Shown here: piece after piece, positions 173-26,698 of the stretch | Layout of the letters: every line of letters starts with the position of its first letter | Position numbering within the stretch: the first letter of the stretch is position 1 | Virus record (IMG/VR): IMGVR_UViG_3300020162_002139 | Location: 1-27,240 of that record | DNA: 27,240 nt | Direction: 5' to 3' (one strand) | Source of the DNA: a virus | The notes under the pieces: generated by a model | Told to the model about the DNA's origin: nothing | The model's database searches: none | Seen by the model: the letters and a program-made list of their open reading frames with translations, nothing else | Made by a program: the position numbers and the translations under genes

Positions 173-435
173 AACATTTCCTCCCTGTAATCATCGTCAG
201 AAATCATTTCCATGTAATCAGAGATACAATTGTTGATGTACTCGCAAATTGATTCTGCATTTTCTTCCAAGGCTTGGAGAATCACATTCTGTTTCCATTC
301 CTTGGTCATATCGCTAGGCTTGACTCCTTCTCGTTCGAGTACGCTATTGATATCTTCTGAGCCCCACTGCAAACATGGGTGCATTACGATGTCGTGATCT
401 TCACGCAGTTTGGTAATCATTGTTTCCTTTTTCAT
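169..435 (-). CDS. Small acidic hypothetical protein (88 aa)
   Basis: The protein begins MKKETMITKLREDHDIVMHP and is acidic towards the C-terminus (DYMEMISDDDYREEMF). I do not recognise the family. A longer open frame reaches position 495, but I reject it: its extra 20 residues would be encoded by a Bacteroidota-type promoter (454-483) that would start transcription about 10 nt before this ATG. The 3' end overlaps the next gene. Having its own promoter means this gene and the one beyond it can be expressed apart from the upstream early operon. Confidence 0.65.
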   Translation of the reverse strand: MKKETMITKLREDHDIVMHPCLQWGSEDINSVLEREGVKPSDMTKEWKQNVILQALEENAESICEYINNCISDYMEMISDDDYREEMF

Positions 436-453
436 ATTTGTTAATCTTGTGTG

Positions 454-483
454 CAAATGTAGTATAAAAATGTATAAATCAAA
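454..483 (-). promoter_or_regulatory. Bacteroidota-type promoter, leftward
   Basis: On the minus strand, TTTG (483-480) is followed after 18 nt by TACATTTG (461-454), matching the -33/-7 consensus TTTG/TAnnTTTG. The start of transcription would fall near 447, about 12 nt before the ATG at 435. It lies in the 53-nt gap between two early genes and so is an internal promoter of the leftward array. Confidence 0.6.
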
Positions 484-488
484 ATAAT

Positions 489-779
489 TTAGCAATCTTT
501 TACAATTGCTACTACTCCAGGGTTAACCCACTCTCCATACCATCCGTGGTCTCTGAGGAAGTTAACTAACTCTACATGAATACCGAACTCCCAGTGCTCA
601 TAGTTCTGAGTCCAATAGTTGAGCAGATCGTATCCATCTGAAGATAATATACCTGAATCCTCAGCTGATATAGAAAAGATGTTTGGTGATTTTTCAACCC
701 ATCCATTACCATCCTTGAAGATGGTCATCTTGGGGTACTTCTTTTGTAACTTGGTGATTAAACTTACTTTGGTTGTCAT
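489..779 (-). CDS. Hypothetical protein, 96 aa, aromatic-rich
   Basis: The protein begins MTTKVSLITKLQKKYPKMTI and is rich in aromatic residues (YWTQNYEHWEFG at about 54-65; WYGEWVNPGVVAIV near the end). That pattern suggests a compact alpha/beta fold. I recall small phage and plasmid proteins of Bacteroidota with a similar GxxWVNxGVV ending, but cannot name a family. It begins 3 nt after the stop of the preceding gene, as expected in an operon. The product is probably a soluble accessory protein; no catalytic motif is visible. Confidence 0.65.
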   Translation of the reverse strand: MTTKVSLITKLQKKYPKMTIFKDGNGWVEKSPNIFSISAEDSGILSSDGYDLLNYWTQNYEHWEFGIHVELVNFLRDHGWYGEWVNPGVVAIVKDC

Positions 780-1343: not shown

Positions 1344-1538
1344 TTAATTAAAATGATTAACTTCAGTTGCATACACCGCATCTGCAATGGTAAAATCATA
1401 ATGGGTTAAACATAGGGACTCAGAACCATCATCATGAAGGCGATATACTTCTTTCTCTTGATCATAGAACAAGTCTTTGGCTTCCTCACGGCTCACGATA
1501 TACCATACGTGACCATCATTCATAATTTTTGTGTTCAT
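1344..1538 (-). CDS. Small hypothetical protein (64 aa)
   Basis: The start ATG overlaps the stop of the Api92-like gene upstream (ATGA), so the two are probably co-translated. The sequence has a short beta/alpha pattern (HVWYIVSREEAKDLFYDQEK, residues 10-29) followed by an acidic loop. A second in-frame ATG lies 5 codons in; the first is preferred because of the overlap. No family recognised. One copy of the dispersed GGG(N)CTCAGA motif lies inside it (1415-1424). Confidence 0.6.
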   Translation of the reverse strand: MNTKIMNDGHVWYIVSREEAKDLFYDQEKEVYRLHDDGSESLCLTHYDFTIADAVYATEVNHFN

Positions 1539-2227
1539 TTTAATTCTAATTTATCTAATACATCTTGTGGAACAGGGCAATCTAATTGGTGATCAAAATA
1601 ATAACCAGCCTCAGCACCTTCTCGGAAATAAGATTCCGTGATAGTGGAATTTAACTTAGTGATAAAGCCAAGTTCGCTATCCATTTGAAAGTCAGACCAA
1701 TCGGGTGCATCATTGATTTCGGTTAGTGTGCATATCCCGTTCTCATACACTAAACCACCTGAGAATGAACCACCTTCCTCATCGAAGTGCAACTCAAAAT
1801 TGGGAAAGGTTAGGGCAAAGTCTTCAAGGATATCAAGATCGAACAATCCCCATGCAGTAGCGAAGTTGTAACAAGTCCCATCAATATCATTGTCATAGCA
1901 TCCCCACTTAGTTTGCCAGTTATTATGAGCCCACTCATACCAATTATCCACACCATACTTCTCAAGTAGGGCTTTCTGCATCTTCTTGGTGATGGGTTTG
2001 GGTTCGTAGTAGAAATCTTTAGTGCGATCGATTTTCTCGTTCTCCTTTATAATCTTTTTGTATTCGGTCTCAGATACAATACGGGTAGGAGATGTAGTAT
2101 TACGGATATCGTCAGGCATAGGACGATAGTACTGGCATAGCCCTACTTTAGCAATCTCATTCAATATAACTTTTTGTTCGTCTGTTAGATCAGACATGGC
2201 GAGGTGATAATAAACGTGGTTTGGCAT
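1535..2227 (-). CDS. Api92-like / DUF1281 family protein (230 aa)
   Basis: The N-terminus MPNHVYYHLAM and the block YGVDNWYEWAHNNWQTKWGC (91-110), followed by FATAWGLFD (122-130) and a late EEGGSFSGG (150-158), are the hallmarks of the ferredoxin-like Api92/DUF1281 family. That family is widespread in phages and mobile elements, and I know of no established biochemical role for it. Length fits the family. The protein has no membrane segment. It sits mid-operon between two small unknown genes, with a 4-nt overlap at its 3' end. Assignment is by motif memory only. Confidence 0.7.
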   Translation of the reverse strand: MPNHVYYHLAMSDLTDEQKVILNEIAKVGLCQYYRPMPDDIRNTTSPTRIVSETEYKKIIKENEKIDRTKDFYYEPKPITKKMQKALLEKYGVDNWYEWAHNNWQTKWGCYDNDIDGTCYNFATAWGLFDLDILEDFALTFPNFELHFDEEGGSFSGGLVYENGICTLTEINDAPDWSDFQMDSELGFITKLNSTITESYFREGAEAGYYFDHQLDCPVPQDVLDKLELK

Positions 2228-2711: not shown

Positions 2712-2879
2712 TCAGTCTATAATTATTTCGGTGTGTTGAATATTGCATTGTTCCATTTCTGCCTCATTGATCTCCTCATCGGTTAGATTGTGAGCCTCGT
2801 TGATGGCTTCAAACACGGTCTCAGCATCCACATACATGATAGTGGAATAGGTGCGGTTAATTACTACTCTATATTTCAT
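2712..2879 (-). CDS. Very small hypothetical protein (55 aa)
   Basis: This ORF was found by hand: ATG at 2877-2879, TGA at 2712-2714, translation beginning MKYRVVINRTYSTIMYVDAE and ending HTEIIID. It has a beta-rich start followed by an acidic helix (NLTDEEINEAEMEQ), typical of small phage folded proteins. Its start overlaps the 3' end of the upstream 92-aa gene by 11 nt, and the next gene begins 2 nt after its stop. That continuity is the main support. Family unknown. Confidence 0.6.
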   Translation of the reverse strand: MKYRVVINRTYSTIMYVDAETVFEAINEAHNLTDEEINEAEMEQCNIQHTEIIID

Positions 2880-3147: not shown

Positions 3148-3866
3148 AATCCTAATCCTTTGTTGATTGCTTGAAACATATCCCTTTCTTCTTGGTCTGC
3201 TCGAACTACAAAACCCGTAGTATCTTTCTTTGCTTGACCCTTGGCTTTGAGCCCCAAGATACCACCTTTGATGTCGAGCATCAAATCATCTCTTTCATCA
3301 CCATCGTATACCTCATACCCATTGAAATGTGTAGGCATCTCATCGAACACCATGGCGACAATACCTCCACTTGCAAGGTGCTCCATTGCTTCTTGGTGAT
3401 TGGTCTCAGATCTAGAAAAGGTTACCACATACTTATGACCTGAGGGGAGAATACGAGACCCAGCCTTTTGTAATATCTTGGTATAGTCATAGAACACTAC
3501 ATTGGATGGGATATCAGTAGTAGCAACTTGCTCCACCAACTTGATATCTGATGTACCATTGAGACGTACTGCCAACTCACCATCAGTTCTGCGAGCCTTG
3601 CGAATAATCTCATTGCGAATCTGCATCACAAAGGTGAATCTATCGTTCACATAATAGTTAGCCTTATTGATACGGGCTTGTTGTACATTACTGAATGCAC
3701 CCATACCTGCTGTGAATAGGCAAGATGCTAGGCATCCCTCACTAGCCTTGGGACATAGGTTAACACCTTTATCATTTTGGGTAGATGGAGACAGATACAA
3801 AATAACAGTCTCTCTTAAGTTCTTCTTGGTTTTGGCGTTAGAATCGCCACTGCTCAATAGTTTCAT
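3144..3866 (-). CDS. Gp88-like phage protein with Cys cluster (240 aa)
   Basis: The N-terminal third carries a conserved cysteine cluster, NLCPKASEGCLASCLFTAGM (36-55; C38, C45, C49), followed by VQQARINKANYYVNDRFTF (61-79). This matches the 'gene product 88' family found in many phages and mobile elements, which typically begins LS-GN-K and has this C-x6-C-x3-C cluster. I know of no established role; the cysteines could bind metal or an Fe-S cluster. The rest alternates strands and helices (VVFYDYTKI; KYVVTFSRSETN; GIVAMVFDE), like a barrel-type enzyme. It is the largest gene of the early operon and overlaps both neighbours by 4 nt. Confidence 0.7.
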   Translation of the reverse strand: MKLLSSGDSNAKTKKNLRETVILYLSPSTQNDKGVNLCPKASEGCLASCLFTAGMGAFSNVQQARINKANYYVNDRFTFVMQIRNEIIRKARRTDGELAVRLNGTSDIKLVEQVATTDIPSNVVFYDYTKILQKAGSRILPSGHKYVVTFSRSETNHQEAMEHLASGGIVAMVFDEMPTHFNGYEVYDGDERDDLMLDIKGGILGLKAKGQAKKDTTGFVVRADQEERDMFQAINKGLGL

Positions 3867-4063: not shown

Positions 4064-4314
4064 TTTACTTTTTTGCCGTTGATGATAGTGATGGTTTGCA
4101 AGTTGATAAGGCGATAGTCCTTGGACTGCATATCGTATACTGATAGGTAACCCAACTCGGCTGGATCATAACTACGTCCCTTGGAATTGGGTCTCAGATG
4201 TTTTTTAACACCACTTCTACCTAGTAGGTAACGTACTGAACCATCTTTCTTGGTAAACTCACAGGAGAAGAATCTACCTGACTTAATAATTGCGATTGCT
4301 TGTTTCTTATTCAT
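4060..4314 (-). CDS. WYL_2 / DUF2693-like small protein (84 aa)
   Basis: The pattern is an N-terminal helix (NKKQAIAIIKSGRFFSCEFT), then FTKKDGSVRYLLGRSGVKKH (19-38), then LSVYDMQSKDYRLINLQTIT (56-75). This is the layout of the WYL_2 family (formerly DUF2693), an Sm/SH3-like barrel common in Bacteroidota phages. The WYL relation suggests ligand or nucleic-acid binding, but no function is proven. Basic overall. Overlaps both neighbours by 4 nt. One exact GGGTCTCAGA motif copy lies inside it (4189-4198). Confidence 0.65.
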   Translation of the reverse strand: MNKKQAIAIIKSGRFFSCEFTKKDGSVRYLLGRSGVKKHLRPNSKGRSYDPAELGYLSVYDMQSKDYRLINLQTITIINGKKVK

Positions 4315-5010: not shown

Positions 5011-5181
5011 TTATTTAGTTTTGGGCTCAGATTCAATTGCTGAAAGGATTAATGCAACAATCGCCACAAAGAAGTAGCAAATGCCATCAAAGAAGTGCTT
5101 GTTCATGATTGAGGTAATGCTCACATAGTACATGACAAGAGCAATACAGATAAGTGCGATAACTTTTAGTGTGATATTCAT
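5011..5181 (-). CDS. Small two-helix membrane protein (56 aa)
   Basis: Start placed at MNITLKVIALICIALVMYYV (ATG 5179-5181). Two hydrophobic segments are visible, about residues 4-20 and 32-48 (YFFVAIVALILSAIES), joined by a short polar loop with KHF, and the C-terminus is charged. This should be an inner-membrane hairpin. Small membrane proteins in early phage operons include superinfection-exclusion proteins and holins, but nothing here decides between them. It is the first gene after the structured noncoding segment. The ATG lies between two copies of TAGTGTGATA (5168-5177 and 5181-5190 on the plus strand), so the start region is duplicated sequence. Confidence 0.6.
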   Translation of the reverse strand: MNITLKVIALICIALVMYYVSITSIMNKHFFDGICYFFVAIVALILSAIESEPKTK

Positions 5182-5508
5182 AGTGTGATAGTGGGTGATG
5201 GCATGGACTCGAACCACATGTATGCCTTTACATTGCCATCACGATATACTTTCCGTATCACCCATATGTCCATACCTTGCGGATTCCTACATATGGCGAT
5301 TTGATACGGGCATCTATCTGCATCGGTATGTCGATGCTCCGATAGTGTTATGTCAAGGAACGATGCATCTGCAATGGGATAACGTCTCCGCTATCTAAGG
5401 ATGTCCGTAGACATCTGCATTGGGACTCAGATACAAGAATCAGAACGATTTTGTAGGTGATATGGGTAATGCTCCCATACTAAGGTCAACTTGACTCACC
5501 TTGGGTAA
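5182..5508 (-). ncRNA. Structured noncoding segment, possible novel RNA
   Basis: These 327 nt between two leftward genes carry no credible ORF but many stable inverted repeats. (a) 5253-5309: an 8-bp stem CCGTATCA/TGATACGG enclosing an 8-bp stem CCATATGT/ACATATGG, with a GCAA loop on the minus strand. (b) 5320-5337: 6-bp stem GCATCG/CGATGC. (c) 5341-5395: GATAG/CTATC with inner GTTAT/ATAAC. (d) 5400-5415: GATGTC/GACATC, with a UACG loop on the minus strand. (e) 5455-5501: AGGTGA/TCACCT enclosing TATGGG/CCCATA and a GTCAACTTGAC palindrome, a three-way-junction layout. (f) 5192-5241: tRNA-like fold. Sense is taken as minus because both flanking genes and the T-arm read that way. It could be one RNA or a row of decayed tRNAs. 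Confidence 0.5.
5192..5241 (-). other. Compact tRNA-like fold with encoded CCA
   Basis: Read on the minus strand: TGATGGC, a stem ATGTA/TACAT with loop AAGGCA, a T-arm-like GTGG-TTCGAGT-CCAT, GCCATCA, then C-CCA. The 7-bp acceptor-like stem is perfect and extends to 9 bp. The T-loop TTCGAGT is canonical. There is no D-arm, and the single middle hairpin has a 6-nt loop with no usable anticodon, so it cannot be an ordinary tRNA. An alternative 71-nt fold using GGGTGAT/ATCACCC leaves two unpaired bases next to the T-stem. It may be a decayed tRNA or a tRNA mimic. Confidence 0.4.
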
Positions 5509-6914: not shown

Positions 6915-7394
6915 ATGTACATCGATCACCTAAAAGAGCACCAGTTAATCCAGACATTGATCCGCAAGATTCCTGTAGTAGACCCATGGACTACCGTAGT
7001 TCTGAATGTATCGCCAGACTATTCTAGTACATTCTCTATGCACATGGCGCATCATTTATCTCAAGGGGGTAAGATGCTTGATATGTATCCTGTCGATGTT
7101 CCCTTTCCTAAAGAAGATAAGCATATGTATGAGGTGAACTTTAGAGAGAACATTGCTCGCTTTCCTGTACTCTATGATAAAATCATTCTATGTGAGGCTG
7201 CTGTCCTATCTGGAAATAACTATAGGTGGATTAAAGAAGTACTCCTAGATCTAGGGTATGAGAATGATGATATTATTACAACGGCTTTGATACAGAATGT
7301 GTCAAGCTGTTTTGAATGTGATTATGTTGGAGAGTATGCTTCCTCTATGCCTGAGTTCTATTATGAACGGTATAATAAGGCGTGGGAGCTCTGA
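6915..7394 (+). CDS. Phosphoribosyltransferase-like phage protein (159 aa)
   Basis: This is a lone rightward gene between two leftward blocks. The core YDKIILCEAAVLSGNNYRWI (87-106), followed by a helix and DDIITTALIQN (118-128), has the layout of a phosphoribosyltransferase Rossmann core: a hydrophobic strand, an acidic residue with a small loop (EAAVLSGNN), a helix, then another strand. E94 stands where the usual acidic pair would be, so activity is uncertain. The C-terminus CDYVGEYASSMPEFYYERYN recalls other phage PRTase-like proteins. If active it could act on nucleotides or on a target molecule. It ends 32 nt before a convergent tRNA-like gene. The assignment is from pattern memory. Confidence 0.5.
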   Translation: MYIDHLKEHQLIQTLIRKIPVVDPWTTVVLNVSPDYSSTFSMHMAHHLSQGGKMLDMYPVDVPFPKEDKHMYEVNFRENIARFPVLYDKIILCEAAVLSGNNYRWIKEVLLDLGYENDDIITTALIQNVSSCFECDYVGEYASSMPEFYYERYNKAWEL

Positions 7395-7426
7395 GACCCA
7401 ATTCGTTGACACCAACAAAATGGTTG

Positions 7427-7836: not shown

Positions 7837-7991
7837 ACTAGTTTATGGTGAATCATGTAAATTAATGTGTCTATATTACGGGCTTTGATTAGGGTCTCAG
7901 CCGTTCCATTCCAATAAGCAACCCACTCCTCTCTTTTGAAGGCGTGCCATACTTCTTGATACTGGTTGTATACGAATACCCAATTGCTCAC
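7833..7991 (-). CDS. Very small hypothetical protein, GTG start (52 aa)
   Basis: This ORF was found by hand. It starts at GTG 7989-7991, inside a GTGA overlap with the stop of the preceding 67-aa gene, and its TGA overlaps the ATG of the GroES-like gene. Overlaps at both ends are strong evidence that it is translated. The sequence begins MSNWVFVYNQYQEVWHAFKR and continues EEWVAYWNGTAETLIKARNI. It has five tryptophans in 52 residues and looks like two amphipathic helices. No family recognised. It contains one GGGTCTCAG motif copy (7892-7900, plus strand). Confidence 0.6.
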   Translation of the reverse strand: MSNWVFVYNQYQEVWHAFKREEWVAYWNGTAETLIKARNIDTLIYMIHHKLV

Positions 7992-8191: not shown

Positions 8192-8453
8192 TATTTTCAA
8201 TTAAATTAAGTGCTTCCTTTATGGCGTACATATCGGTTATACTGAGGCCCGTTTGACGCAATTGACTCTCCGCATCCATATCTGTTACGGCTTGCTCCAA
8301 ACTAGCAGCAGAAGCCGGGTAGTTATCCATGTGCCTGCCCATAACCACTTTAACCAATTCATCCTTGGTCTGGCGAATTGCCCACAGGTATGTTTTCATA
8401 TACCTGAGGTACTGTTTCTTGTCGATCTTAGGACTTCTCTTATTTATTTGCAT
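8001..8453 (-). CDS. Hypothetical protein with hydrophilic C-terminal tail (150 aa)
   Basis: Residues 1-88 (MQINKRSPKIDKKQYLRYMK to IKEALNLIE) look like a folded helical domain. Residues 89-150 are an unstructured-looking, Gly/Asp/Thr-rich tail (TSREDGTGNQTAGIPDGHLP; GEDRQDKHDGDDPLLGGSK). The tail is exactly the part that overlaps the 67-aa gene in another frame. Either the tail is real and the DNA is dual-coding, or the natural protein ends earlier through a sequence change. The gene starts 3 nt after the HNH gene's stop. No family recognised. Confidence 0.55.
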   Translation of the reverse strand: MQINKRSPKIDKKQYLRYMKTYLWAIRQTKDELVKVVMGRHMDNYPASAASLEQAVTDMDAESQLRQTGLSITDMYAIKEALNLIENNDTQTTSREDGTGNQTAGIPDGHLPIQEDSLLLHTNDTEGTPGSGEDRQDKHDGDDPLLGGSK

Positions 8454-8456: not shown

Positions 8457-8744
8457 TTATCGTGCTTTTTTGTCATGGTACTCTCGTTTTAATCGTTCTG
8501 CTATTTCTGTGGCTTCATCATAGGTCTTCATCGTCTTCCGATTCCCAAATTCCCATTGCTGATGACATGACATACAATAAATCATAAAGTTTTCTGGATG
8601 ATGCCTCAGACTCGGATAACTTCCTTTTGTAATGATATGCGAGATGAACATCGGATGAAAGTGGGACAGTTGTATCCCACATTCCTGGCATTGATGTGGT
8701 CGTGAATTCCACATGGCCTTGTACCATGCTGTATCCTTTGTCAT
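8457..8744 (-). CDS. HNH endonuclease (95 aa)
   Basis: A compact HNH fold with zinc ligands: CQEC (C19, C22), SHIITKG (35-41, H36 in the position of the first HNH histidine), ENFMIYC (N52), and CMSCH (C57, C60, H61). The spacing is that of standalone phage HNH nucleases, which cut DNA with one metal. The start overlaps the YqaJ gene's stop (ATGA), so it is co-translated. Placement next to the exonuclease suggests a part in phage recombination or replication; packaging-associated HNH proteins normally sit next to the terminase, which is not here. A shadow frame at 8518-8775 was discarded. Confidence 0.8.
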   Translation of the reverse strand: MTKDTAWYKAMWNSRPHQCQECGIQLSHFHPMFISHIITKGSYPSLRHHPENFMIYCMSCHQQWEFGNRKTMKTYDEATEIAERLKREYHDKKAR

Positions 8745-9724
8745 CCCACCCTGAAAACTCTTGATCCTTTTGCATTAGGTCTCCATGTTACTTTACCTTC
8801 ATCTGAGGCCAATATCATATTGTTCCCCATATAATTCTTGATGTAATTAGAAGCCTCCCTCTTTTCCTCGTCAAGGCGAGCAATTTCCTCGTTCTTCTGC
8901 TTGTAATGTCGAATATACTCGTCAATTTCATCATTAGAAACAATTGATGCCGATTCAGGGTTCTTGTACTTCTCGTTTAAGAACTCAGAGTAAGCCTCCG
9001 TTCCATCTGGTGGTGGAGCAAACTGATCGTAGTCCTCACCAGTTTCCAAAGCAAGTCTGCCTGACTCAACACGATTCCAAAATTCTGCTGTTACATTGGC
9101 GATCATATCAATCATTTCTTGATCCCTGTCGAACTGATGAACCTTTAGATTTCTACCGTCTTCCAAGGCAACAAGATAGCCAACATCAATACCAAGACCC
9201 ATTAGATACGTCTGCAACTGTAAGTAATAAGACGGTGGAACACCACCAGTCCACTGCTTACTGCTCCAGCCGCTAATCGTCTTAATCTCAATAATAGCTT
9301 CCACATTTTCCAAGTTAATTCTACCATCTCTTATACGTAAGTTTTTAGTTTTGATTTGTAATCTATCAGGCGAAAAAAACAGGTGTGGGTAGTCAGGGTT
9401 TACAACATATCCAACCGGCTCGTACAAAGTTCTAACTTTGGTTTGGGCCTCATAGTTGCGCAACATAGACGCATCATCGCCATCCCAGTACTCAAATATT
9501 TCAGCAACAGTTTTTTCCAAGATAGTCCCCATGAACATAGGAATATTCGGCTCCACCTTCTGAGGGATTAAACCGATCTTCTGATAATATAGTTCTGCTG
9601 GAGATTTCCAGGAGTTGACACCCATCAGGGTACCAATCTCTGAGGCCCCAAGACCACGAGAGCGGAATGCTATCCACTCATCATAAGCCTTGTCCTTATT
9701 GATCTGAATTATCTCAAGACCCAT
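8741..9724 (-). CDS. YqaJ-type viral recombinase / exonuclease (327 aa)
   Basis: It carries the YqaJ (PD-(D/E)XK) signature: RSRGLGASEIGTLMGVNSWK (21-40), MGTILEK (65-71, E70), FFSPDRL (116-122, D120), EAIIEIKT (142-149, E146 and K148 of the EXK motif) and YYLQLQTYLM (166-175). Members degrade one strand from DNA ends to allow single-strand annealing recombination, as lambda exonuclease does. Residues about 260-300 form a charged helix (EYIRHYKQKNEEIARLDEEK), common at the end of this family. It is flanked by an SSB-like gene upstream and an HNH nuclease downstream. I see no Erf, RecT or Redbeta partner in the window. Confidence 0.85.
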   Translation of the reverse strand: MGLEIIQINKDKAYDEWIAFRSRGLGASEIGTLMGVNSWKSPAELYYQKIGLIPQKVEPNIPMFMGTILEKTVAEIFEYWDGDDASMLRNYEAQTKVRTLYEPVGYVVNPDYPHLFFSPDRLQIKTKNLRIRDGRINLENVEAIIEIKTISGWSSKQWTGGVPPSYYLQLQTYLMGLGIDVGYLVALEDGRNLKVHQFDRDQEMIDMIANVTAEFWNRVESGRLALETGEDYDQFAPPPDGTEAYSEFLNEKYKNPESASIVSNDEIDEYIRHYKQKNEEIARLDEEKREASNYIKNYMGNNMILASDEGKVTWRPNAKGSRVFRVG

Positions 9725-9939
9725 TCCTCAAACTGCTCAGCAAGGTGAAACGTCATCTCTTTAACCTCGTCTAGACTCTTGCCTTCCAGACTCATTGAAG
9801 AAACTATATTTACGGCACTTTTTAACGATGACTGCCGAATTATAGAACGCTGTTCCTGCCCATAATGTTTCATATGAGCAGGTTCAACTTTCGCACCGAT
9901 TCTACTAGCTAGTGCCATATCGTGTACGCCTCTAGACAT
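9709..9939 (-). CDS. Small helical hypothetical protein (76 aa)
   Basis: The protein begins MSRGVHDMALASRIGAKVEP and ends MTFHLAEQFEEWVLR, mostly helical. Its ATG overlaps the stop of the SSB-like gene by 1 nt, and its 3' end overlaps the YqaJ gene by 16 nt. I have seen a similar RQSSLKSAV ... EWV pattern in phage proteins coded next to single-strand binding proteins. A role alongside SSB or the exonuclease is a guess from context. Confidence 0.6.
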   Translation of the reverse strand: MSRGVHDMALASRIGAKVEPAHMKHYGQEQRSIIRQSSLKSAVNIVSSMSLEGKSLDEVKEMTFHLAEQFEEWVLR

Positions 9940-10529
9940 TAAAATGGTAAATCATCGATTTCATCAGGAACATTGCTGTTTACAGCGTGCTCTTTAACGA
10001 TATCGTTTGGAACAGTAGGAACCAAGGTGGAGGTAAACTCGTTAACCTTGTCTACACGATAAGCCTCAACCTCAGACCAATCAACAGAGATAACCTCTCC
10101 CTTTTTGTTCTTAAGTTCTTCTGGAGCAGGAACTCCGTCTTGACCAATCTTGTAAGCCCACTTCAACACCTCTCCGTTCTGTTTCAAGAACAAGGCGGAT
10201 CTCTTTTTGTCATCTACGATTTTCAAAGAGGGGATAAATTCCACTCTCTGGTGTGGATTGATACCAGGGCAACAATGGGCAAAAGCGATAAAGTAAGAGG
10301 TCTGCTTACCGCCATCCTCGCCTTTCATCTTAATTTGCAATTGGTACATCTGATCATCTTCCAATGTAACGCACAAATCTGTGCCATACTTGTGTTCCCT
10401 AGTACTAATACCACGGATGTAACCTTCTACTGAGTCAAACAGATGGTAAGCGTCACCTACCTTCTTTGCGATCTTACCTTCTCTGATGGTAAGATAAACT
10501 AATGGAGTTGTTTTTTCTTTTAAAGCCAT
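9939..10529 (-). CDS. Probable single-strand DNA-binding protein (196 aa)
   Basis: The central region (about residues 25-125) alternates beta strands as an OB fold would (SVEGYIRGISTREHKYGTDL, LCVTLEDDQMYQLQIKM, RVEFIPSLKIV). The C-terminus VPDEIDDLPF is an acidic tail ending in Pro-Phe, the typical tip with which SSBs bind partner proteins. The length is close to phage SSBs. As the first gene of the recombination operon, read from its own promoter (10544-10574), it would coat single strands made by the YqaJ exonuclease. The family identity is inferred from tail and context, since the OB core is divergent. Confidence 0.65.
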   Translation of the reverse strand: MALKEKTTPLVYLTIREGKIAKKVGDAYHLFDSVEGYIRGISTREHKYGTDLCVTLEDDQMYQLQIKMKGEDGGKQTSYFIAFAHCCPGINPHQRVEFIPSLKIVDDKKRSALFLKQNGEVLKWAYKIGQDGVPAPEELKNKKGEVISVDWSEVEAYRVDKVNEFTSTLVPTVPNDIVKEHAVNSNVPDEIDDLPF

Positions 10530-11893: not shown

Positions 11894-11899
11894 TAATAA

Positions 11900-17267: not shown

Positions 17268-18116
17268 ATGCGCATCCAAGCTTATTTAGTTCCTCTGAGA
17301 ACCCGTGGTAATGTTACCATCGTTGGTTCTTATCGAGATCGGGCCACTGATAAAGAAGTTTTTCTTTTGGCCTCAGGTAAAAAAGTAGTGTCATCTTTGA
17401 GTGAAGGAGATAGAGTTTATCAGCATACTTTTGAGGAAGGTATGTCTATTCCTTTCAGCTTTGATGAATCTAATTTCCAAGAAAAAGCAGTAGTTGATTT
17501 TTGGAAAAATCATCCATTGGTAGTTACAGATGGGTATAACAACCCAAATTTGATCACCGAGCAATTTAAATTTGAAGTAAAGGCTGAGAAAGTCCGTGTT
17601 GAATATGATGAGTTGTTGGCTCGTTTGCAGTGTGTATCACAAGTGTCTGCCATGACATTCCAGGAGCAGATTAACTTGACTTTTGCATTGGGCTCAGATC
17701 CTCGCAATATGGACCAGAAGGAAATCTATCTTCACCTTATTGGTTTGACATTGAACGGTATGGCAATCGCTAAGAAAAAGTTTGTTGCTAGCTACTTGTC
17801 AGTTAGAGCTAACGAGCGTATTGCAACTGTATACGCAAACAAGGCGATTTCTTACGGTGTTGTAAGTAAGGAGGGTTCTGTTTACAAGATTGCAGGACGT
17901 AACGCAGGTACAACTATTGACGCTGTGGTCGCATTAATTCTGAGCGATACAGAACTGTTTGAGAATTACATCAAACCAGAAGTAGATAAGCACGATGAAA
18001 ATCAATTGCTTAAGTATTCTGTAGACGATACTATTGATCTTCCAGAAGAAATTAAAAATCTTATTCCTGCTAGTGGTGTGGCAGCTAAGAAAAAAGTAAC
18101 CAAGGCTTCCGAGTAA
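17268..18116 (+). CDS. Virion-module protein of unknown role (282 aa)
   Basis: The N-terminus MRIQAYLVPLRTRGNVTIVG is followed by a beta-rich region (residues 1-110), then a helical middle (QKEIYLHLIGLTLNGMAIAK) and a lysine-rich end (PASGVAAKKKVTKASE). It forms a unit of one gene between two terminators with its own promoter, so its amount is set independently of its neighbours. Position between capsid and connector genes suggests a structural or assembly protein. I do not recognise the family. Confidence 0.5.
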   Translation: MRIQAYLVPLRTRGNVTIVGSYRDRATDKEVFLLASGKKVVSSLSEGDRVYQHTFEEGMSIPFSFDESNFQEKAVVDFWKNHPLVVTDGYNNPNLITEQFKFEVKAEKVRVEYDELLARLQCVSQVSAMTFQEQINLTFALGSDPRNMDQKEIYLHLIGLTLNGMAIAKKKFVASYLSVRANERIATVYANKAISYGVVSKEGSVYKIAGRNAGTTIDAVVALILSDTELFENYIKPEVDKHDENQLLKYSVDDTIDLPEEIKNLIPASGVAAKKKVTKASE

Positions 18117-18198: not shown

Positions 18199-18984
18199 AT
18201 GACAGGCGCACAGTTTTGGTCTTATTTACAGCAAAAGATAGATAAGGCTTATTCAGCATACTTAGACAACACCAAGGCTAACGGCCTGATTAAGGAGTCT
18301 ATGTATCGTTTGGTAGATAAGTACTGGAAAGGCTTATCCTTTGAGCGTGAAGACGATGAGATGATTGCCTTCATGGTTCGTGATTTAAGTGTTACTCCTG
18401 CTGCTGGTATTATTGACATTAAGACCTTGCTTCCGAACTATATGCATATTCTGCGTATGGGAGTTAGATATGAAGTTGATGTTGTGGTTACTCTCGTGAG
18501 CGGTACTACTTTGACATCTGCAAATCACAAACTTAGAAAAGGGAATACAGTTAAGTTGAGTAGTACTCTCTACACAGTTACTAAAGTTAAGGGTGATACT
18601 TTTGACTTGGGTACAAGTGGATTGAGTACAGGAACATACAAACAGATCGTAGACAAAGAAGCAAAGCAAATGGTCGGAGACCGAAAGAACGGTGCTTTCC
18701 ACAAAGCAGATTTTTCAACTCCCCGTTTTGAATCTAGAACTGCTGGCACTACAACTCCTCGGAGTTTTAAAGTTACACCAGCTCCTGCTACTTGTACGAT
18801 TGATTATGTTCGTATTCCTCCTGTTGATATTGACGTGGCGAATACAACAACCATTCTGGAGGATTACTACGGAATGAAGTTCTTGTATCGTTTGATGGAT
18901 GAATGCGTGCTAAACTTTGGGGCTCAGACAAAAGACTACCCAACTAAGCAGAGTGCACAACAAGATATAATTGAAAACCCATGA
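18199..18984 (+). CDS. Putative connector/ring protein (261 aa)
   Basis: It begins MTGAQFWSYLQQKIDKAYSA with a helical N-terminus typical of head-tail connector subunits. It has a small beta insert (VVVTLVSGTTLTSANHKLRK; about 94-150, resembling a Hint-like or SH3-like barrel) and a helical end (LEDYYGMKFLYRLMDECVLN). It opens a set of four overlapping genes (ATGA and TAATG junctions) leading into the giant tail protein, the order seen in crAss-like phages where ring proteins lie between portal and muzzle. The specific ring is not determinable from sequence alone. Confidence 0.5.
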   Translation: MTGAQFWSYLQQKIDKAYSAYLDNTKANGLIKESMYRLVDKYWKGLSFEREDDEMIAFMVRDLSVTPAAGIIDIKTLLPNYMHILRMGVRYEVDVVVTLVSGTTLTSANHKLRKGNTVKLSSTLYTVTKVKGDTFDLGTSGLSTGTYKQIVDKEAKQMVGDRKNGAFHKADFSTPRFESRTAGTTTPRSFKVTPAPATCTIDYVRIPPVDIDVANTTTILEDYYGMKFLYRLMDECVLNFGAQTKDYPTKQSAQQDIIENP

Positions 18985-19619: not shown

Positions 19620-20113
19620 AAATAGAAGATGTAATAGCAGCGGCCTCAGAAGAACTGAATGCCTCATATGAGAATAATGCTCTGTGGTTTGAAGTACTCA
19701 TTCACCAGGCTGTTCGTTCTCACAAAACTCCTAAGAAGTTTAAGGAGATTCATGTTCGTGTAGAAGCACAGGACAATAAAATACAAATGCCTGATGGTTG
19801 GATTCGTATTTTGGGTTTGTATGATTGTAATACCAGCCTGAAGTATTGCCCTGATATTGACTACGTACTTCAAAATGAGTGTATTGTTTTTGATACTGGA
19901 TTGGCGATTAAAGACGGAACAAAATTTGACTTCAGATATTATGGATTGAACATCAATGATCAAGGCGAGTTGATCATTCCTGATGATTGGGAACGTATGC
20001 TAGTAGCCTATATTGGATGGAAATATACTCGTAGATACATTAAGGACTTTGGTGTAGCTGTAATGCAGAACTACCAAAGGGAATACCAAACACAAAAACT
20101 AGCTAACGTATAA
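19616..20113 (+). CDS. Putative connector/ring protein (165 aa)
   Basis: It begins MKIEDVIAAASEELNASYEN. It has a central beta stretch (EIHVRVEAQDNKIQMPDGWI) and a helical end with WERMLVAYIGWKYTRRYIKD (123-142). The P-x-G-W-I-R-I-L pattern recurs in small tail-connector proteins of podoviruses, where it lies in the DNA-channel barrel. It overlaps its upstream neighbour (ATGA), and its stop shares a base with the next gene's ATG. Probable adaptor between neck and tail. Confidence 0.5.
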   Translation: MKIEDVIAAASEELNASYENNALWFEVLIHQAVRSHKTPKKFKEIHVRVEAQDNKIQMPDGWIRILGLYDCNTSLKYCPDIDYVLQNECIVFDTGLAIKDGTKFDFRYYGLNINDQGELIIPDDWERMLVAYIGWKYTRRYIKDFGVAVMQNYQREYQTQKLANV

Positions 20114-23100
20114 TGGCAGTAGTAAGAGTGACCCCATCAGGTATCATGGATAAAGATACCGATTTGTCTTATATCAATCAAGGTAACTATGTTGATGCAA
20201 ATGATATAAGACATCGCCAGACCGATGGTAATACATTTGGTGGCGTTATGTCTGTTGTGGGAAATACTAGTATGTTACAGTTCCCCAATTATGCTTCTAC
20301 TAATAAAAAGTTTCGTATTTTTTTAGACCTTGCTGATTTTTACGATACTGCGGTTGGAAGTGTAAACTTTACTTGGAAATTACAAGAAGATGGCTCTGGA
20401 TTTATTGGGGTAGCTTCTAATACTGCCTCTTCTATTGCTTCTCTTGCGACTTTTGCTAGTACAGTATATAGTACAATTGATGGATTGGTTGCATATACTA
20501 CCGTTGGAAGTTTTTCTTTTACTGCTACTAAGACAGTAGGAGGAGTTGTTTATGCTGGGTACTTCGATATGGAGTTCAGCGGAAATACAGTTGATTATAA
20601 ATTGTGGGTTGAGAACACAGTAAGCAATGCTGCAACAATTTATGTAACTCAAGAGTGGGTTCCAGCAGCAGCTGATCAAAGTTTTCAAGTTGTTGGGTCT
20701 CAGCAAATAGAAAGTTACTTATTCGTATTCCTCGCCTCAGTTACAAAAAGTACAGGTATTGTCTCTTTATTGAGTGAAGTAGGTGTAGTATACAGCACAG
20801 ATAACGGAGTTAGTTATACATATAGAAGATTAGTACGTAGCAAGCAATTAGGCTTTTCAACAGATAGGCGAATAGAAGCAGAGTTAGAAAGAAACGGATC
20901 GAATGTAAATTTGTATTGGACAGATGGTTTTAATAAGCCACGTGCGATGTACTTAAAATATTCTTTGATTACAACCACAGATGCTTTCTTAGTTGCGGCA
21001 GGTGGTCGTTATGATTTGGAAACAATAAATGATGAAACTTCTTTCTTTTACAAAGGAAGTTCTGCCTACTTTAGTAATGTTGAAGTTATACAAGGAGGAG
21101 GAGCATTAAGTTCTGGAAACAAAAGATATACAGGTCGTTTTTTAACAGAAGACTTTGTTCCTAGTGATTTTATGTATCCAACAAATCCATTAAATATTTA
21201 TAGCGCTTCCTTTAATAAGGCTAGCAAAGTAGAAGGAGATGCAGAAAATATTATTACAAACAAATCTGTAAAAATTACAATAAATAATTTTGAAGCAGAT
21301 ATCTATAAATATTTTGAATTAATAGCAATTGAATATGTAGGTACTGCATTTACAACTAAGATTATCGAGCGCTTTAAAATTGCTACTGGGGCATCGCAAT
21401 TAGTTGTTACTCATACAAATATAGGTCAAGATAATATTACACTTAGCAATCAAGAATTATTGGGGATTACATCTAAATATTTATCTGCTCAAACAATTAA
21501 AATATTTAGTAATAGAATGACAATGAGTAATTTGGTAGAACAAACCGATTACGATTTAAGTTCTTGGGCTTCAACAATTCAACACTCGGTTTGTGAAACG
21601 TATATTCCAGGGTTAGGAATTTCAAAGAACATAAGTAGCGATGATCCAGGTACAGCATTTGGCGAGTACCAAGACCCTAATAATGTATATAGCAAGACTG
21701 GGTATATGTATAATGATACTTATCGTTTTGGTATTCAAGTTCAATGGAAAAATACCGGCAAGTGGAGTTCTCCGTATTGGGTAGAAGATATTCGGTTTGA
21801 TAACTCAGCATCGAATGTTGTTGGGTCAAGGCGGAAAACATTTGGAGGAAGTGTAAGTGCAGTAAATACTAGTACAGAAACAATTACGGTTACAGGACAC
21901 AATTTTTACAATGGTCAACCCGTGTACTTTAGTGCAACTACAATTGGTGGTTTGGCAGCTAATACAGTTTATTATGTTCTCAATAAAACTACGAATACTT
22001 TTCAATTGAGTTCTACTTTTGGTAGTTCTACTGTAATCAATTTAACTAGCAGTGGAACAGGTACAATACTCGATAAGAAAATAGATACCAATTTGACAAA
22101 TGCAGACGCATCCTTAGTAAAAGTATATTATCCTCGTTTTTTTAATATTGATTTAGATTACTTAGTTGATACTGATAACAGCGGAAGTGGAGACACTTAT
22201 CTTAGAAATTTAATTGTAGGCTACAGAATTGTAAGAAGCGAGAGAATTCCAGAAGTTGCAGCAACGGGTTATTTCTTTGTTAGTTCGACCTCGATTAGCC
22301 CCAGTCCTACTATTAATGTCCCAGATGGGATGAGTAATGATCGAGCAATCCCTGGTGGGGGAGCAAATACACAACGCCTTTTCTTCTGGTCTCCCGATGA
22401 TTATTTTGGTAAAACTTACGCATATCAATCGACTGATGCAATTAAAATCTTAGCCCCGCCAGATAGAACAAATATGCTTCAAGTTCAAGGAGTTGCGGAG
22501 GGAGATAATACAACTTATACTACTGTACTTCCGGTTAGTGCTCTAGAGATGAAAGGTCAATTTGCGGATTTTCCAGGTTACTTTGTAAACCCGATGACAA
22601 CAACTTTGAACTTTCAAGATTTTACTCCGAGTGGTCATGTTCATCTTGAATTAGGAGACGATGGGGAAATTGCAGGTACAAAATATTCTATTGGTTACCC
22701 CGATACAGTTGGTTTACAAAAAAGTATTACTTATAGAAGAGCAGAAGTATTTGAAATGGGGTCTGTGATTCCTGCCTTTAGTGCTCCTATTGCATCAAAT
22801 GAATTTGGATTTTACTATGGCCAAATATTTAGAAATTTAGGTGGTAATAAAAAGTACTCTGCTAATAAAGAACTTACCCAATATCAAACCATAGGACATA
22901 TTTATATTTTAGCGTCTGGCCAAACAGGTATTATAAATGCAGAACCCGTATTTGGTGGTGATATATTCAATCAAAAATCATATACGCTCTTAAGAATGGG
23001 TAGCCATTCTAATACTGGCGGTAATCCTCGTTCGGCTGCTACAATGGGTTCTGCGATGGGTTTCTATTCTCAGAATACTTCTAACTTACAGATGCTTACT

Positions 23101-24402
23101 ATCTTAGAAAACGATGGTACATTTACAGGTCCGGGGTATCAGTTTCCTCAAAGTCTAGATACAAGCAAGGGAGGCACATTTCCAGCAGGTTCTTGGGGAT
23201 CTGGAGTATGTTACTGGATTGAACAATGGCCTGAAGTAAGCAATCAGCAAAATTATAATCGTGGTTATGACCCAACTGATAATAGTATTTTAGATACCGG
23301 GTACGATACCAACTTGAATTATAATGGCTACTTACCCTCTCGTGTTACTTGGTCGGCCAAAAAAATTATTGGGTCTCAGAAAGATAACTATCGTCTATTC
23401 AAACCACTAGACTTTGCAGATCTTGATTTAACATTAGGACCTATTGTACACCATGATGTAGTAGATAATAATTTTTACACTTGGCAGCCTTATAGCGTGC
23501 AGAGACAATACTTTAACGATGCTTCTTTATTGGGAGCACAAGAGGGCACAGACATTGTTATTGGAACGGGTTCTATTCTTGGATCCTCAGGTGTACAATT
23601 GACAGCAATCGGAATGTTTAAAAAGTGGAGCCATGTAAAAGGAAAAACCCCTAGTGGAAAAGAGACATTCTATTGGTATAATGATCAATTGCAAAAATTT
23701 GTTCGCTTTGGTCAAGATGGCACACGTGTTATCTCAGATAAAGGAATGATATCTTACTTAACAAATAATGGTAAGTATGTTAGCAATCAAGATTACCACT
23801 TGACAGGTTTAGGAGTACATGGTGTATGGAATGATAAGTACGCAGAAACTATCTTTACTTTTAAATATAATGATGGCGCATCCAACAAGCAGTTTACTGT
23901 GGTATACGATGAGATTAAAAATGGCTTTGTGGCTTTTCATTCTTACTACCCAAATATATATTTAAGATTTAATAATACTTTTTTCTCTCCGAATCCTTCA
24001 TTACCAAAGGCATTGTATCTTCATGATCGGGGCTCAGAATCAACTTACTACGGAACATACGTAACACCATCGCTAACAGGCGTAATGAACTATGACCCGA
24101 ACGTAAGTAAGAACTTCGAAGCGTTACAATTTGTAACGGATACACAACCTTTTGAAGTATTTTTAACTACCGCAAATCATGTATCATACTTAGACGAAAC
24201 AGAGTTTGAAAAGAGAGAGGACCTTTGGTATAGTCCTATTAAAAATGATTCAACTTCAACTGGACTCAACAATGGGGATACTTCTCGTTTATGGGGTAAG
24301 TGGTTGAAAGTGAAGATGACTTTTGAGGCGAGTATTGGAAAACAGAAACTGATCAACTTCATGGTCAAGTTCCGCCCAATGGCTCGTTTGTTTAATCAAT
24401 AA
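20113..24402 (+). CDS. Large tail tube / stabilisation-muzzle protein (1429 aa)
   Basis: This is the largest gene. The N-terminus, VVRVTPSGIMDKDTDLSYIN then QGNYVDANDIRHRQTDGNTF (about 22-41), matches the opening of nozzle/'stabilisation' proteins of crAss-like and T7-like phages (G-MN-D-DL ... G-Y-DA-NIR). These build the end of the short tail and often form a beta-propeller. Nearly the whole chain is beta-rich, Ser/Thr/Tyr/Asn-rich. A repeat-like insert near 575-630 (VSAVNTSTETITVTGHNFYN) resembles a small Ig or beta-sandwich domain as found in receptor-binding parts. Codon use is more A/T-rich than in the capsid genes. Confidence 0.6.
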   Translation: MAVVRVTPSGIMDKDTDLSYINQGNYVDANDIRHRQTDGNTFGGVMSVVGNTSMLQFPNYASTNKKFRIFLDLADFYDTAVGSVNFTWKLQEDGSGFIGVASNTASSIASLATFASTVYSTIDGLVAYTTVGSFSFTATKTVGGVVYAGYFDMEFSGNTVDYKLWVENTVSNAATIYVTQEWVPAAADQSFQVVGSQQIESYLFVFLASVTKSTGIVSLLSEVGVVYSTDNGVSYTYRRLVRSKQLGFSTDRRIEAELERNGSNVNLYWTDGFNKPRAMYLKYSLITTTDAFLVAAGGRYDLETINDETSFFYKGSSAYFSNVEVIQGGGALSSGNKRYTGRFLTEDFVPSDFMYPTNPLNIYSASFNKASKVEGDAENIITNKSVKITINNFEADIYKYFELIAIEYVGTAFTTKIIERFKIATGASQLVVTHTNIGQDNITLSNQELLGITSKYLSAQTIKIFSNRMTMSNLVEQTDYDLSSWASTIQHSVCETYIPGLGISKNISSDDPGTAFGEYQDPNNVYSKTGYMYNDTYRFGIQVQWKNTGKWSSPYWVEDIRFDNSASNVVGSRRKTFGGSVSAVNTSTETITVTGHNFYNGQPVYFSATTIGGLAANTVYYVLNKTTNTFQLSSTFGSSTVINLTSSGTGTILDKKIDTNLTNADASLVKVYYPRFFNIDLDYLVDTDNSGSGDTYLRNLIVGYRIVRSERIPEVAATGYFFVSSTSISPSPTINVPDGMSNDRAIPGGGANTQRLFFWSPDDYFGKTYAYQSTDAIKILAPPDRTNMLQVQGVAEGDNTTYTTVLPVSALEMKGQFADFPGYFVNPMTTTLNFQDFTPSGHVHLELGDDGEIAGTKYSIGYPDTVGLQKSITYRRAEVFEMGSVIPAFSAPIASNEFGFYYGQIFRNLGGNKKYSANKELTQYQTIGHIYILASGQTGIINAEPVFGGDIFNQKSYTLLRMGSHSNTGGNPRSAATMGSAMGFYSQNTSNLQMLTILENDGTFTGPGYQFPQSLDTSKGGTFPAGSWGSGVCYWIEQWPEVSNQQNYNRGYDPTDNSILDTGYDTNLNYNGYLPSRVTWSAKKIIGSQKDNYRLFKPLDFADLDLTLGPIVHHDVVDNNFYTWQPYSVQRQYFNDASLLGAQEGTDIVIGTGSILGSSGVQLTAIGMFKKWSHVKGKTPSGKETFYWYNDQLQKFVRFGQDGTRVISDKGMISYLTNNGKYVSNQDYHLTGLGVHGVWNDKYAETIFTFKYNDGASNKQFTVVYDEIKNGFVAFHSYYPNIYLRFNNTFFSPNPSLPKALYLHDRGSESTYYGTYVTPSLTGVMNYDPNVSKNFEALQFVTDTQPFEVFLTTANHVSYLDETEFEKREDLWYSPIKNDSTSTGLNNGDTSRLWGKWLKVKMTFEASIGKQKLINFMVKFRPMARLFNQ

Positions 24403-24418
24403 TAAATAACTAAATTTG
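24387..24418 (+). promoter_or_regulatory. Late promoter before the internal virion genes
   Basis: TTTG (24387-24390), 20-nt spacer, TAAATTTG (24411-24418), a perfect match. The ATG at 24426 follows after 7 nt. The -33 box lies inside the last codons of the giant tail gene. Confidence 0.65.
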
Positions 24419-24425
24419 TAATTAC

Positions 24426-25262
24426 ATGGCATTTCTACCATTCGTACCACAACTAGCATTAGGAGCAATCCAAACAGGAGTTGCTCTCAGTCAGTTGAAC
24501 AAATTGCGTGGCCAAGCCTTGCCTCGGTACGACTTCTCTCCAACACAAGCTAATGTATCTATGTACAGGCAGCGTTTAGCTCAAGGGTTACCCCCTGCTG
24601 AGATTGCTTCTATGGAACAGGCACAGGCTGCTCAAAATGCTGGTGGGTATCGTCAAGCAACTGACTTATCTGGTGGACAGTTGAGTTCTGCTATCGGTAG
24701 AATTGGTCAATTACAAAATATCAATTTGGCTACTCGTATGGGTCAGATGCAAGCACAGGAAAGAAGAGCCGCTCAATCTAGTTTGGCTGCTTCTCAGTCT
24801 GCCTTGCAGGGTCAGATGAATATGCAGACTCAGTACGATATGCAAAGAAGAGCACAGGAAGAACAGGCTTTGGGTGGTGCTATGAAAGCAGGTTTACAAA
24901 GTATGGGTAATGCTTTGACTTATGGAGCGTTTGATTACTTGGGTGGTTTGAATAAAACAAAAACTACTCCTGAAATAGCAAGCGTAACTCAGCAAAGTGT
25001 GGCAAATGTAACCCCAACACAATTTGCCAATCAAGGACAGTTTCCAATGACCAGCGCTGATTATTTTAATATGGGAACACCATTTAATACACGGGTTGGT
25101 GAAAATGCTTTGTATGCTCCTGATTATCAAGCACCTGCTCCGATGAATACATATGGATTCGCTCCTAGTGCACCAACACTCAGTAGAAATCCATATCAAG
25201 TGAATACTCCTTTTAGTTTTATGTCGGGATACGTACCACCAACAATAGCAGTAAAAAAATAA
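24426..25262 (+). CDS. Putative internal virion protein (278 aa)
   Basis: It begins MAFLPFVPQLALGAIQTGVA, a hydrophobic N-terminus of the type seen in ejected virion proteins. Residues 40-150 form an Ala/Gln-rich helical region (EIASMEQAQAAQNAGGYRQA; QMQAQERRAAQSSLAASQSA), a likely coiled coil. The C-terminal third is Pro/Asn/Thr-rich and disordered-looking. Podoviruses carry such proteins (T7 gp14-like in role) in the head core and eject them to span the cell envelope. Assignment by composition and place; no homology is claimed. Confidence 0.5.
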   Translation: MAFLPFVPQLALGAIQTGVALSQLNKLRGQALPRYDFSPTQANVSMYRQRLAQGLPPAEIASMEQAQAAQNAGGYRQATDLSGGQLSSAIGRIGQLQNINLATRMGQMQAQERRAAQSSLAASQSALQGQMNMQTQYDMQRRAQEEQALGGAMKAGLQSMGNALTYGAFDYLGGLNKTKTTPEIASVTQQSVANVTPTQFANQGQFPMTSADYFNMGTPFNTRVGENALYAPDYQAPAPMNTYGFAPSAPTLSRNPYQVNTPFSFMSGYVPPTIAVKK

Positions 25263-26698
25263 TGGCAAGCAACGTAAATGTAGGTTTAGGTATAGGATTG
25301 CAGGCTCAACTACAAGCCCCAGCACAAGTATTCGCAAGACAGCAACAGCAAAAGATTGCAGCACAACAAGCTGCCCTAAAGCGAGCTGCTGAGGATGAGG
25401 ATTTATTGTCTCGCTTACAGAAAGACGTAAGTGTGAATTCGAAAGAGTTGCACCGTTTGGTTAAAAAGCCCGTTGCCGATATTAGTGCTAATGCAATCAA
25501 TGAGTTGATCAAGGCTAAAAGTAGCGGAGACTTGAACTGGAGAAATAAGGCTGTAGACATCACAAACAATTACAAGAATGAGTTAGCTCACCTTTCTGGG
25601 CTGAGCGATCAATATAAGAACTTTGAGAAAAACTACGAGACTTTGGGTAACTACAAGACTCGTGAGCAACAAAGTCTACGTGAGTTGATGAATGGGTCTC
25701 AGACCTATACAGAGATGCTCGACAAGGCAAAGAAAGCAAACATGGCAGGTGTAGATGTAGAGAGCGGATTAATCCTTTCTAATCAGTTTATGCCTCGTGT
25801 AGATTTGAATAGAACATTGGATGGCACCTTCTCTAAGGTAAGTCCTATTGAAACAAGTGTTAAAACAGTCAAGGAGGGAGGAAATGAGTATCAAGAAGTA
25901 AGAAGTCGTGTTCCTCTGATGAAATCCGAGGCTGATTTGATTGCCGGTCAAAGAGGTCTTACATTCATCCCATCTATTGAGAGTACAGCAGAAGAAATTA
26001 TTGCTGATCCTACCTTGCGTACACAATACGCTGATACATACGGTATCAATCCTCAAGATGAAGCAGCACTTAAGAGCAGTATTATGAACGAGGGTCGTAA
26101 GTTTGTAGAAGAAGGAATTAAGCGCAGAAACTTGGGTAATCAAAACATACGTGTTGTTGTAAATACAGGCGGAGAGCAAGATATATTAGGGTTTAATAAA
26201 TCAGTACAAACCCTTGACACAGGTGGATTTAAAACCGCCTCTGCCGCTGTATTGGGTGTGAATGCTCCTGGCTACTCAACAGTAAAAAGTGGAAACTTGG
26301 TAAATCAAGTTGGAAATCTTGCTCCTGGAGGTACAATCACAGGGGCGGATGTAAATGAGGTGCGTGTAATGCCTTGGGTTCAAGATCCTAAATCAAAAGC
26401 AATACGACCAGCTAAGATTGGAGAAAAACCAGCAGGTTATCAGACATTTGTAATGTTTGGTATGGAAGGAAGCAAGTTTTTCTTGCCCGCTGAAGAATTT
26501 AGTTATACTGGTTTGATGAAAGGCGGAAAAGATATTTCTATGACTATTCAAAACTCTGTTACAGATATGAATAATTATGCAGAGCAATTAAATGAATTGT
26601 ATATTGCAGAAAGAAAGAAACCAGGTGCCGTTAAGGACGCCTTTGGTAAGGGAGATATATACACTATGACAAACGAACTTAAAAAGAAAGTTAAATAA
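25262..26698 (+). CDS. Putative internal virion / ejected protein (478 aa)
   Basis: It begins MASNVNVGLGIGLQAQLQAP, then a Gln/Ala-rich coiled coil (FARQQQQKIAAQQAALKRAA, 24-43) and long helices (KNFEKNYETLGNYKTREQQS). The C-terminal part (about 230-440) turns to mixed alpha/beta with many beta strands (FVMFGMEGSKFFLPAEEF). It overlaps the upstream gene (TAATG) and the downstream gene by one base. Similar helical proteins follow the tail gene in many Bacteroidota podoviruses and are packed in the head. It contains an exact GGGTCTCAGA motif copy (25694-25703). Confidence 0.45.
   Translation: MASNVNVGLGIGLQAQLQAPAQVFARQQQQKIAAQQAALKRAAEDEDLLSRLQKDVSVNSKELHRLVKKPVADISANAINELIKAKSSGDLNWRNKAVDITNNYKNELAHLSGLSDQYKNFEKNYETLGNYKTREQQSLRELMNGSQTYTEMLDKAKKANMAGVDVESGLILSNQFMPRVDLNRTLDGTFSKVSPIETSVKTVKEGGNEYQEVRSRVPLMKSEADLIAGQRGLTFIPSIESTAEEIIADPTLRTQYADTYGINPQDEAALKSSIMNEGRKFVEEGIKRRNLGNQNIRVVVNTGGEQDILGFNKSVQTLDTGGFKTASAAVLGVNAPGYSTVKSGNLVNQVGNLAPGGTITGADVNEVRVMPWVQDPKSKAIRPAKIGEKPAGYQTFVMFGMEGSKFFLPAEEFSYTGLMKGGKDISMTIQNSVTDMNNYAEQLNELYIAERKKPGAVKDAFGKGDIYTMTNELKKKVK

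Follow-up and report, generated by a model that had tools for sequence, protein, structure and literature searches.

The virus record IMGVR_UViG_3300020162_002139, analyzed over its full 27,240 bases (the window), is a fragment of a tailed phage that carries many copies of an asymmetric 12-letter DNA word, TTGGGNCTCAGA, with the core GGNCTCAG. The word occurs in dozens of copies across a phage family; in the genomes of this one uncultured family, its density is about one site per 1-2 kb, and it is under selection, even at silent codon positions. The fuller family-wide consensus is TT[G/C]GGNCTC[A/C]GA. We tentatively read TTGGGNCTCAGA as a polar signal, similar to Chi, that would act in end-processing or recombination, with a phage-encoded reader likelier than a host-encoded one. 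In the window, portal, capsid-like, and tail genes run rightward, and replication/recombination genes and small genes run leftward. The family probably infects Bacteroidota, given its phage kinship and the presence of TAnnTTTG-type -7 boxes, which we take to be Bacteroidota promoter boxes (e.g., TAAATTTG upstream of the portal gene). A search with the portal of the window recovered 34 relatives at 67-92% identity and one partial match; a sister group at 53-57% identity was reached by portal alignment.

A first-pass annotation of the window had listed several variants of the word, and each was recovered where it had been placed: GGGTCTCAGA at 4189, 23371, and 25694 on the plus strand and 7390-7399 on the minus strand; GGGTCTCAGC at 7892 and 20695; GGGCTCAGA at 5023, 17690, 18920, and 24030 (plus) and 356-364 (minus); GGGACTCAGA at 1415 and 5422; and GGGCCTCAGA at 12374 (plus) and 9639-9648 (minus). 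The 14-mer reported to occur twice, AATTGGGTCTCAGA, was found once per strand. The word family is therefore real, but its division into forms with and without an additional base did not hold, as all are a single motif, GG-N-CTCAG, in which N may be G. Under a second-order Markov model, the two most over-represented 8-mers in the window were GGTCTCAG (10 versus 0.49; p = 1.5e-10) and GGCCTCAG (7 versus 0.31). The p value for GGTCTCAG holds after correction for all 8-mers, and the 9- and 10-mers are headed by the same word family. The reversed (backwards) pattern has no match in the window.

The claim that codon use cannot explain the word was borne out by codon-preserving shuffles, in which synonymous codons were permuted among all genes of a contig and non-coding and overlapping bases were left untouched. 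These shuffles are conservative because the untouched bases retain their sites, and they failed to reproduce the counts, as expected of a DNA-level motif: GGNCTCAG occurs 25 times in the window versus 4.9±1.3 in 60 shuffles (maximum 8), and 12-39 times in ten relatives versus 0.9-3.9. The observed count lay above the shuffle maximum in every one of these contigs. When the 11 contigs were pooled, GGNCTCAGA was found 168 times, compared to 18 after shuffling, and altering most of the fixed core letters abolished most or all of the excess; the exceptions were C at the seventh position (GGNCTCCGA), which retained a 12-fold excess, and other letters at the ninth, which retained 5-6-fold. Codon use and amino-acid repeats are ruled out by the shuffles and by the occurrence of sites in all allowed frames on both strands, and composition by the Markov models and the reversed-pattern control.

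The word was also found in relatives at aligned positions, including synonymous ones. Neither of the two outcomes that the first-pass annotation had named as refuting the motif was thus observed. In codon-aligned orthologs from nine closer relatives, the motif was kept in 188 of 232 comparisons, versus 71 from GC-matched windows in the same frames (a persistence of 81% for the motif and 31% for matched words); as the test was limited to windows with identical residues and the pairs are not independent, these values convey strength and not an exact probability. Within the portal gene, motif sites occupy few columns of the alignment, and several of these columns are common to 7-12 relatives and missing from others.

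Nearly all of the relative loci found through the portal exceed expectation for the motif. All 21 further family contigs analyzed in full carry it, one as a weak residue only, and copy number is approximately 12-54 sites per contig. In twelve whole records, 12-39 sites were counted in phage contigs, compared to 0-3 for the backwards control. Counts in whole contigs of the sister group ranged from 37 in 67 kb down to 6 core sites in 65 kb (G013, the weakest), with a backwards control of 0-8. There, the consensus has become TGGGGNNTCAGA, with length and register unchanged, and GGGGNNTCAG is present 36 times versus 5.6 in four low-count genomes; the motif consensus thus shifts with phage phylogeny. 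The sister-clade contigs in which the main word is weak (G024, G018, G013, and G025) also harbor an excess of the palindrome AACCnnnGGTT, which is strongly over-represented against codon shuffles (40 versus 7.4 in G024; 30 versus 3.4 in G018).

Outside the family, the enrichment was not seen. IMG/VR was scanned with three exact consensus 14-mers and, as a control, one reversed 14-mer. Among the 303 loci with a consensus 14-mer that were classified, 33 carried significantly more additional copies than expected, and every one of the 33 encodes proteins of this family; the reversed 14-mer gave no enriched contig. Flavobacterium phage Fpv1 contains no copy and Cellulophaga phage phi14:2 contains one, and 3.6 Mb of Bacteroidota megaplasmids and chromids, not known to share a host with the family, contain two copies of GGGNCTCAGA; a Bacteroidota-wide motif is ruled out by these counts. 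The sole contig in a GTDB genome found to carry the portal of the window phage (L043, RFPL01000025.1; 88% identity) belongs to a Sphingomonadaceae metagenome-assembled genome. In that assembly, 20 of 21 strict hits cluster in seven contigs (C18, C22, C34, C40, C41, C45, and C47), with one in C35 and none in C1-C8. This clustering excludes the motif as a property of the assembly, and the seven contigs are probably phage contigs binned there. The motif also offers a strong marker by which additional family contigs can be recruited from sequence data.

Across the family, 547 of 615 motif sites lie inside supported genes, and they occupy both strands and all allowed frames, indicating a signal that acts as DNA. 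Sense, antisense, and non-coding sites have a common wider consensus, TT[G/C]GGNCTC[A/C]GA(T). An element operating only at the RNA level is ruled out by the identical extended consensus of the antisense sites, and promoters, operators, and start-associated elements by the intragenic position of most sites, which show no intergenic concentration. In three distant members, the motif is immediately adjacent to the start codon (GGTCTCAGATG) of the following large gene (G014:43587, G025:34600, and G027:57846).

Orientation differs between regions. The rightward excess noted originally was reproduced in the window (18:7 for GGNCTCAG); its extension to leftward genes was seen at the left end of the window but not family-wide, where 98 sites point rightward and 105 leftward. 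In the rightward (late-gene) arms of the family, rightward sites outnumber leftward ones 41:4 for the strict word TTGGGNCTCAGA and 34:2 for the sister-clade form, whereas the leftward arms show 17:14 for the strict word and 125:112 for the core. The late-arm bias is real, since codon shuffles predict only 1.6:1 for the core in rightward arms and 1.1:1 in leftward arms. Where leftward genes are separated by non-coding DNA, the word opposes transcription, pointing right 24:9. Mapped by position in the main clade, sites point rightward between 2 and approximately 24 kb beyond the start of the portal gene; within that gene and in the RecE/SSB block, they point leftward. Neither transcription alone nor the genome axis alone therefore explains orientation. 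An orientation flip at a replication origin was considered and rejected, as no clear single flip was seen at candidate DnaA-box clusters. The even spacing reported for the left of the window proved a slight effect: sites are slightly more evenly spaced than random in most close relatives.

The Chi-like interpretation follows from a motif that is asymmetric, polar, dispersed in coding DNA, and slightly evenly spaced, in a phage that itself encodes recombination functions. On this model, a protein translocating inward from a phage DNA end would meet the polar word and change its behavior, by pausing, halting degradation, loading a recombinase, or taking up an orientation, and phage ends would then be processed productively in concatemer formation, recombination, and packaging. 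The first-pass annotation had offered a Chi-like site, a packaging or nucleoid signal, or a site for a phage-coded binder; the last gains support from the confinement of enrichment to one phage family, for which reason a phage-encoded reader is favored, not proven, and the roles themselves are candidates. Several points weigh against the Chi-like reading. Polarity is non-uniform: leftward arms are near 1:1, and sites in the RecE/SSB block and the portal point leftward. The 12 positions and graded flanks exceed the 5-8 bases of known Chi sites. Pooled counts lack independence, given that contigs share some sites by homology, and the reader of the word is named only at candidate level. The fuller proposal, a phage-encoded polar "self" code in which a drifting 12-bp word is read directionally in end-processing, recombination, or packaging independently of host RecBCD/AddAB, is possible but is held a little more loosely. 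Like Chi, which is read by RecBCD/AddAB and used by Rec+ Inh- lambdoid phages (PMC3784561), the motif is a short, over-represented polar word (with polarity in the rightward arms) dispersed in the coding DNA of phages with their own recombination genes. It differs in being longer, with graded flanks and non-uniform polarity, in being absent from other phages, and in being known here from phage genomes; its pooled observed/expected ratio is about 9, compared to a median near 2-3 for Chi in lambdoids (PMC3784561).

Among the alternatives, the one that survives best, though we consider it unlikely, is that the words are stoperator- or nucleoid-like: dispersed asymmetric sites at which a phage DNA-binding protein (e.g., the product of 10843-11256) silences or organizes phage DNA. 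The stoperators of Cluster A mycobacteriophages (PMC6550527, PMC9283540) are asymmetric scattered sites of approximately 13 bp, in similar numbers per genome, and they drift with lineage, co-varying with the repressor (PMC6550527). The asymmetric 12-bp consensus, the tens of sites per contig, and the lineage-dependent drift described above match this pattern, and a probable lambda-repressor-fold protein is encoded where the divergent arms meet, with an apparent sister-clade counterpart. However, stoperators lie predominantly in one orientation relative to transcription, and the leftward arms are close to 1:1, with their non-coding sites opposing it. No site was seen in the 10530-10588 gap preceding the candidate gene, and the fold matches of the 137-residue protein are weak.

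The probability that TTGGGNCTCAGA is a true host Chi is judged lower again. The word would then be the RecBCD/AddAB site of the host, over-represented by the phages for protection in the manner of Rec+ Inh- lambdoids. It is polar and G-rich on its 5′ side, as are known Chi sites, and the clade drift could follow different hosts. Over-representation of Chi is documented in Rec+ phages without RecBCD inhibitors (PMC3784561). Against this, no unrelated viral contig with a consensus 14-mer was enriched, and the word was nearly absent from Fpv1, phi14:2, and the Bacteroidota replicons, none of which is known to share the host.

Another polar DNA function, in replication (priming or fork movement) or in orienting packaging or segregation through the primase-helicase, terminase, or serine recombinase, is improbable. 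Such proteins are available: each of the eleven large contigs with coverage of these genes encodes terminase, polymerase, and primase-helicase, and 14 of the 16 contigs compared encode serine recombinase. Orientation is also regional; primase sites, however, span approximately 3-5 bases, pac sites are single, and the DnaA-box clusters mark no clear switch in orientation. That the pattern is an artefact of composition or codon use, or reflects a few sites inherited in common and not selected, is scarcely credible: homology of some sites makes pooled counts non-independent, but single-contig shuffles and Markov models already reject it, the reversed pattern is not enriched, and sites, although relatives differ by gains and losses of them, are retained far above matched windows.

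Other dispersed words offer partial parallels. The DNA uptake sequences of Haemophilus and Neisseria share a density of approximately one per kb, a long consensus, AT-rich flanks, and presence on both strands, but they are cellular and not phage signals and are without the polarity seen here. The Start Associated Sequences of Cluster K mycobacteriophages are likewise asymmetric short repeats of one phage group, reported absent from tested host genomes (PMC3203893). They lie at translation starts, whereas the word here is mostly intragenic and few of its sites abut starts. Lambda exonuclease provides a precedent for a recombination exonuclease of a phage that senses sequence, with strand-specific pausing at GGCGATTCT (PMC7496540). 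That motif likewise involves a phage end-processing exonuclease, and a RecE/YqaJ exonuclease is encoded in the present family; it differs in sequence and is reported at the left cos site, not dispersed genome-wide.

If the Chi-like reading is right and the reader is encoded by the phage, the first candidates would be the RecE/YqaJ-like exonuclease, present in all 16 family contigs compared, and the 137-residue protein at 10843-11256. The AlphaFold model of the latter is all-helical, and its PDB matches are mostly XRE/repressor domains, although weak (best E 0.14). The protein lies at the junction of the arms, and its apparent sister-group counterpart is approximately 20% identical, which fits what the reader of a drifting motif might show. 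Pfam returned nothing for this or the 85-residue protein at the junction. No gene fits cleanly as confined to high-motif phages among the 16 contigs. A standalone DnaA C-terminal domain protein, encoded by many family members, was rejected as the reader, as the DnaA box TTATNCACA is spaced differently and such boxes occur separately. Copies of this protein, which lacks the ATPase part, are located at G009:18560-18952 (portal-oriented coordinates), G008:1577-1912, G006:1135-1470, G013:9721, and G025:49757; PF08299 was confirmed for those in G009 and G013, and the others were assigned by motif only. DnaA boxes adjoin a motif site in G018 and G024.

The genome-wide polar words Chi, KOPS (FtsK-orienting polar sequences), and stoperators each opened a way to mechanism, and a selected, evolving, family-wide phage word lends itself to direct testing. 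Reading by a phage protein would mean that phages have a Chi-like self-recognition of their own; reading by the host would make the word a candidate Bacteroidota Chi and help to identify the host. The literature searched turned up no Chi described for Bacteroidota.

Table 1. Motif sites and neighboring genes in the window
Feature	Position	Strand	Remarks
Motif site, GGGGCTCAGA form	357..364	-	
Motif core GGACTCAG	606..613	-	
Motif core, GGGACTCAGA form	1416..1423	+	
Motif core, CGGTCTCAGA form	2066..2073	+	
Motif core, CGGTCTCAGC form	2817..2824	+	
Motif core, TTGGTCTCAGA form	3402..3409	+	
Strict motif AATTGGGTCTCAGA	4185..4198	+	
Motif site TTTGGGCTCAGA	5023..5031	+	
Strict motif TTGGGACTCAGA	5422..5431	+	between leftward genes
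Strict motif AATTGGGTCTCAGA	7390..7403	-	
Motif site GGGTCTCAGC	7892..7901	+	
Motif core (GGNCTC[A/C]G)	8242..8249	-	
RecE/YqaJ-like exonuclease	8741..9724	-	PHROG 434 E 1.2e-65; PF09588 above cut-off
Motif core GGCCTCAG	8803..8810	-	
Motif site GGGCCTCAGA	9639..9648	-	within exonuclease gene
SSB-like protein, acidic LPF tail	9939..10529	-	ends in DDLPF; no Pfam/PHROG match
137-residue protein, probable lambda-repressor-like helix-turn-helix	10843..11256	+	AlphaFold pLDDT 90.7
RusA-like resolvase	11201..11602	+	PF05866 22.7 bits, just under 22.8 cut-off
Motif core GGCCTCAG	11413..11420	+	
Motif site GGGCCTCAGA	12374..12383	+	portal gene; 10/29 portals share alignment column
Motif core GGTCTCAG	13605..13612	-	portal gene
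Motif core (GGNCTC[A/C]G)	17369..17376	+	
Strict motif, TTGGGCTCAGA form	17690..17698	+	
Motif core (GGNCTC[A/C]G)	18675..18682	-	
Motif site GGGGCTCAGA	18919..18928	+	
Motif core GGCCTCAG	19642..19649	+	
Motif site GGGTCTCAGC	20695..20704	+	
Strict motif TTGGGTCTCAGA	23371..23380	+	
Motif site GGGGCTCAGA	24029..24038	+	
Motif site GGGTCTCAGA	25694..25703	+	

The product of 9939..10529 appears SSB-like from its sequence, and a counterpart is found in all 16 family contigs compared. On the minus strand at 7552-7836, the window encodes a small protein that resembles a GroES co-chaperonin by eye and has no match in Pfam or the phage collection. The gap between the RusA-like gene and the portal gene (11600-11900) contains a conserved non-coding stretch that likewise precedes the portal in relatives. 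Rfam gave no match in the window, this stretch included. It comprises GGAAAGGGGGGAAAGGGGGGTATGG and, upstream, a ATGGGGGTATG loop whose apparent flanking stems vary among relatives (CAGTCC/GGACTG versus CACGGC/GCCG), and its features suggest an RNA structure or a regulatory element of the late region.

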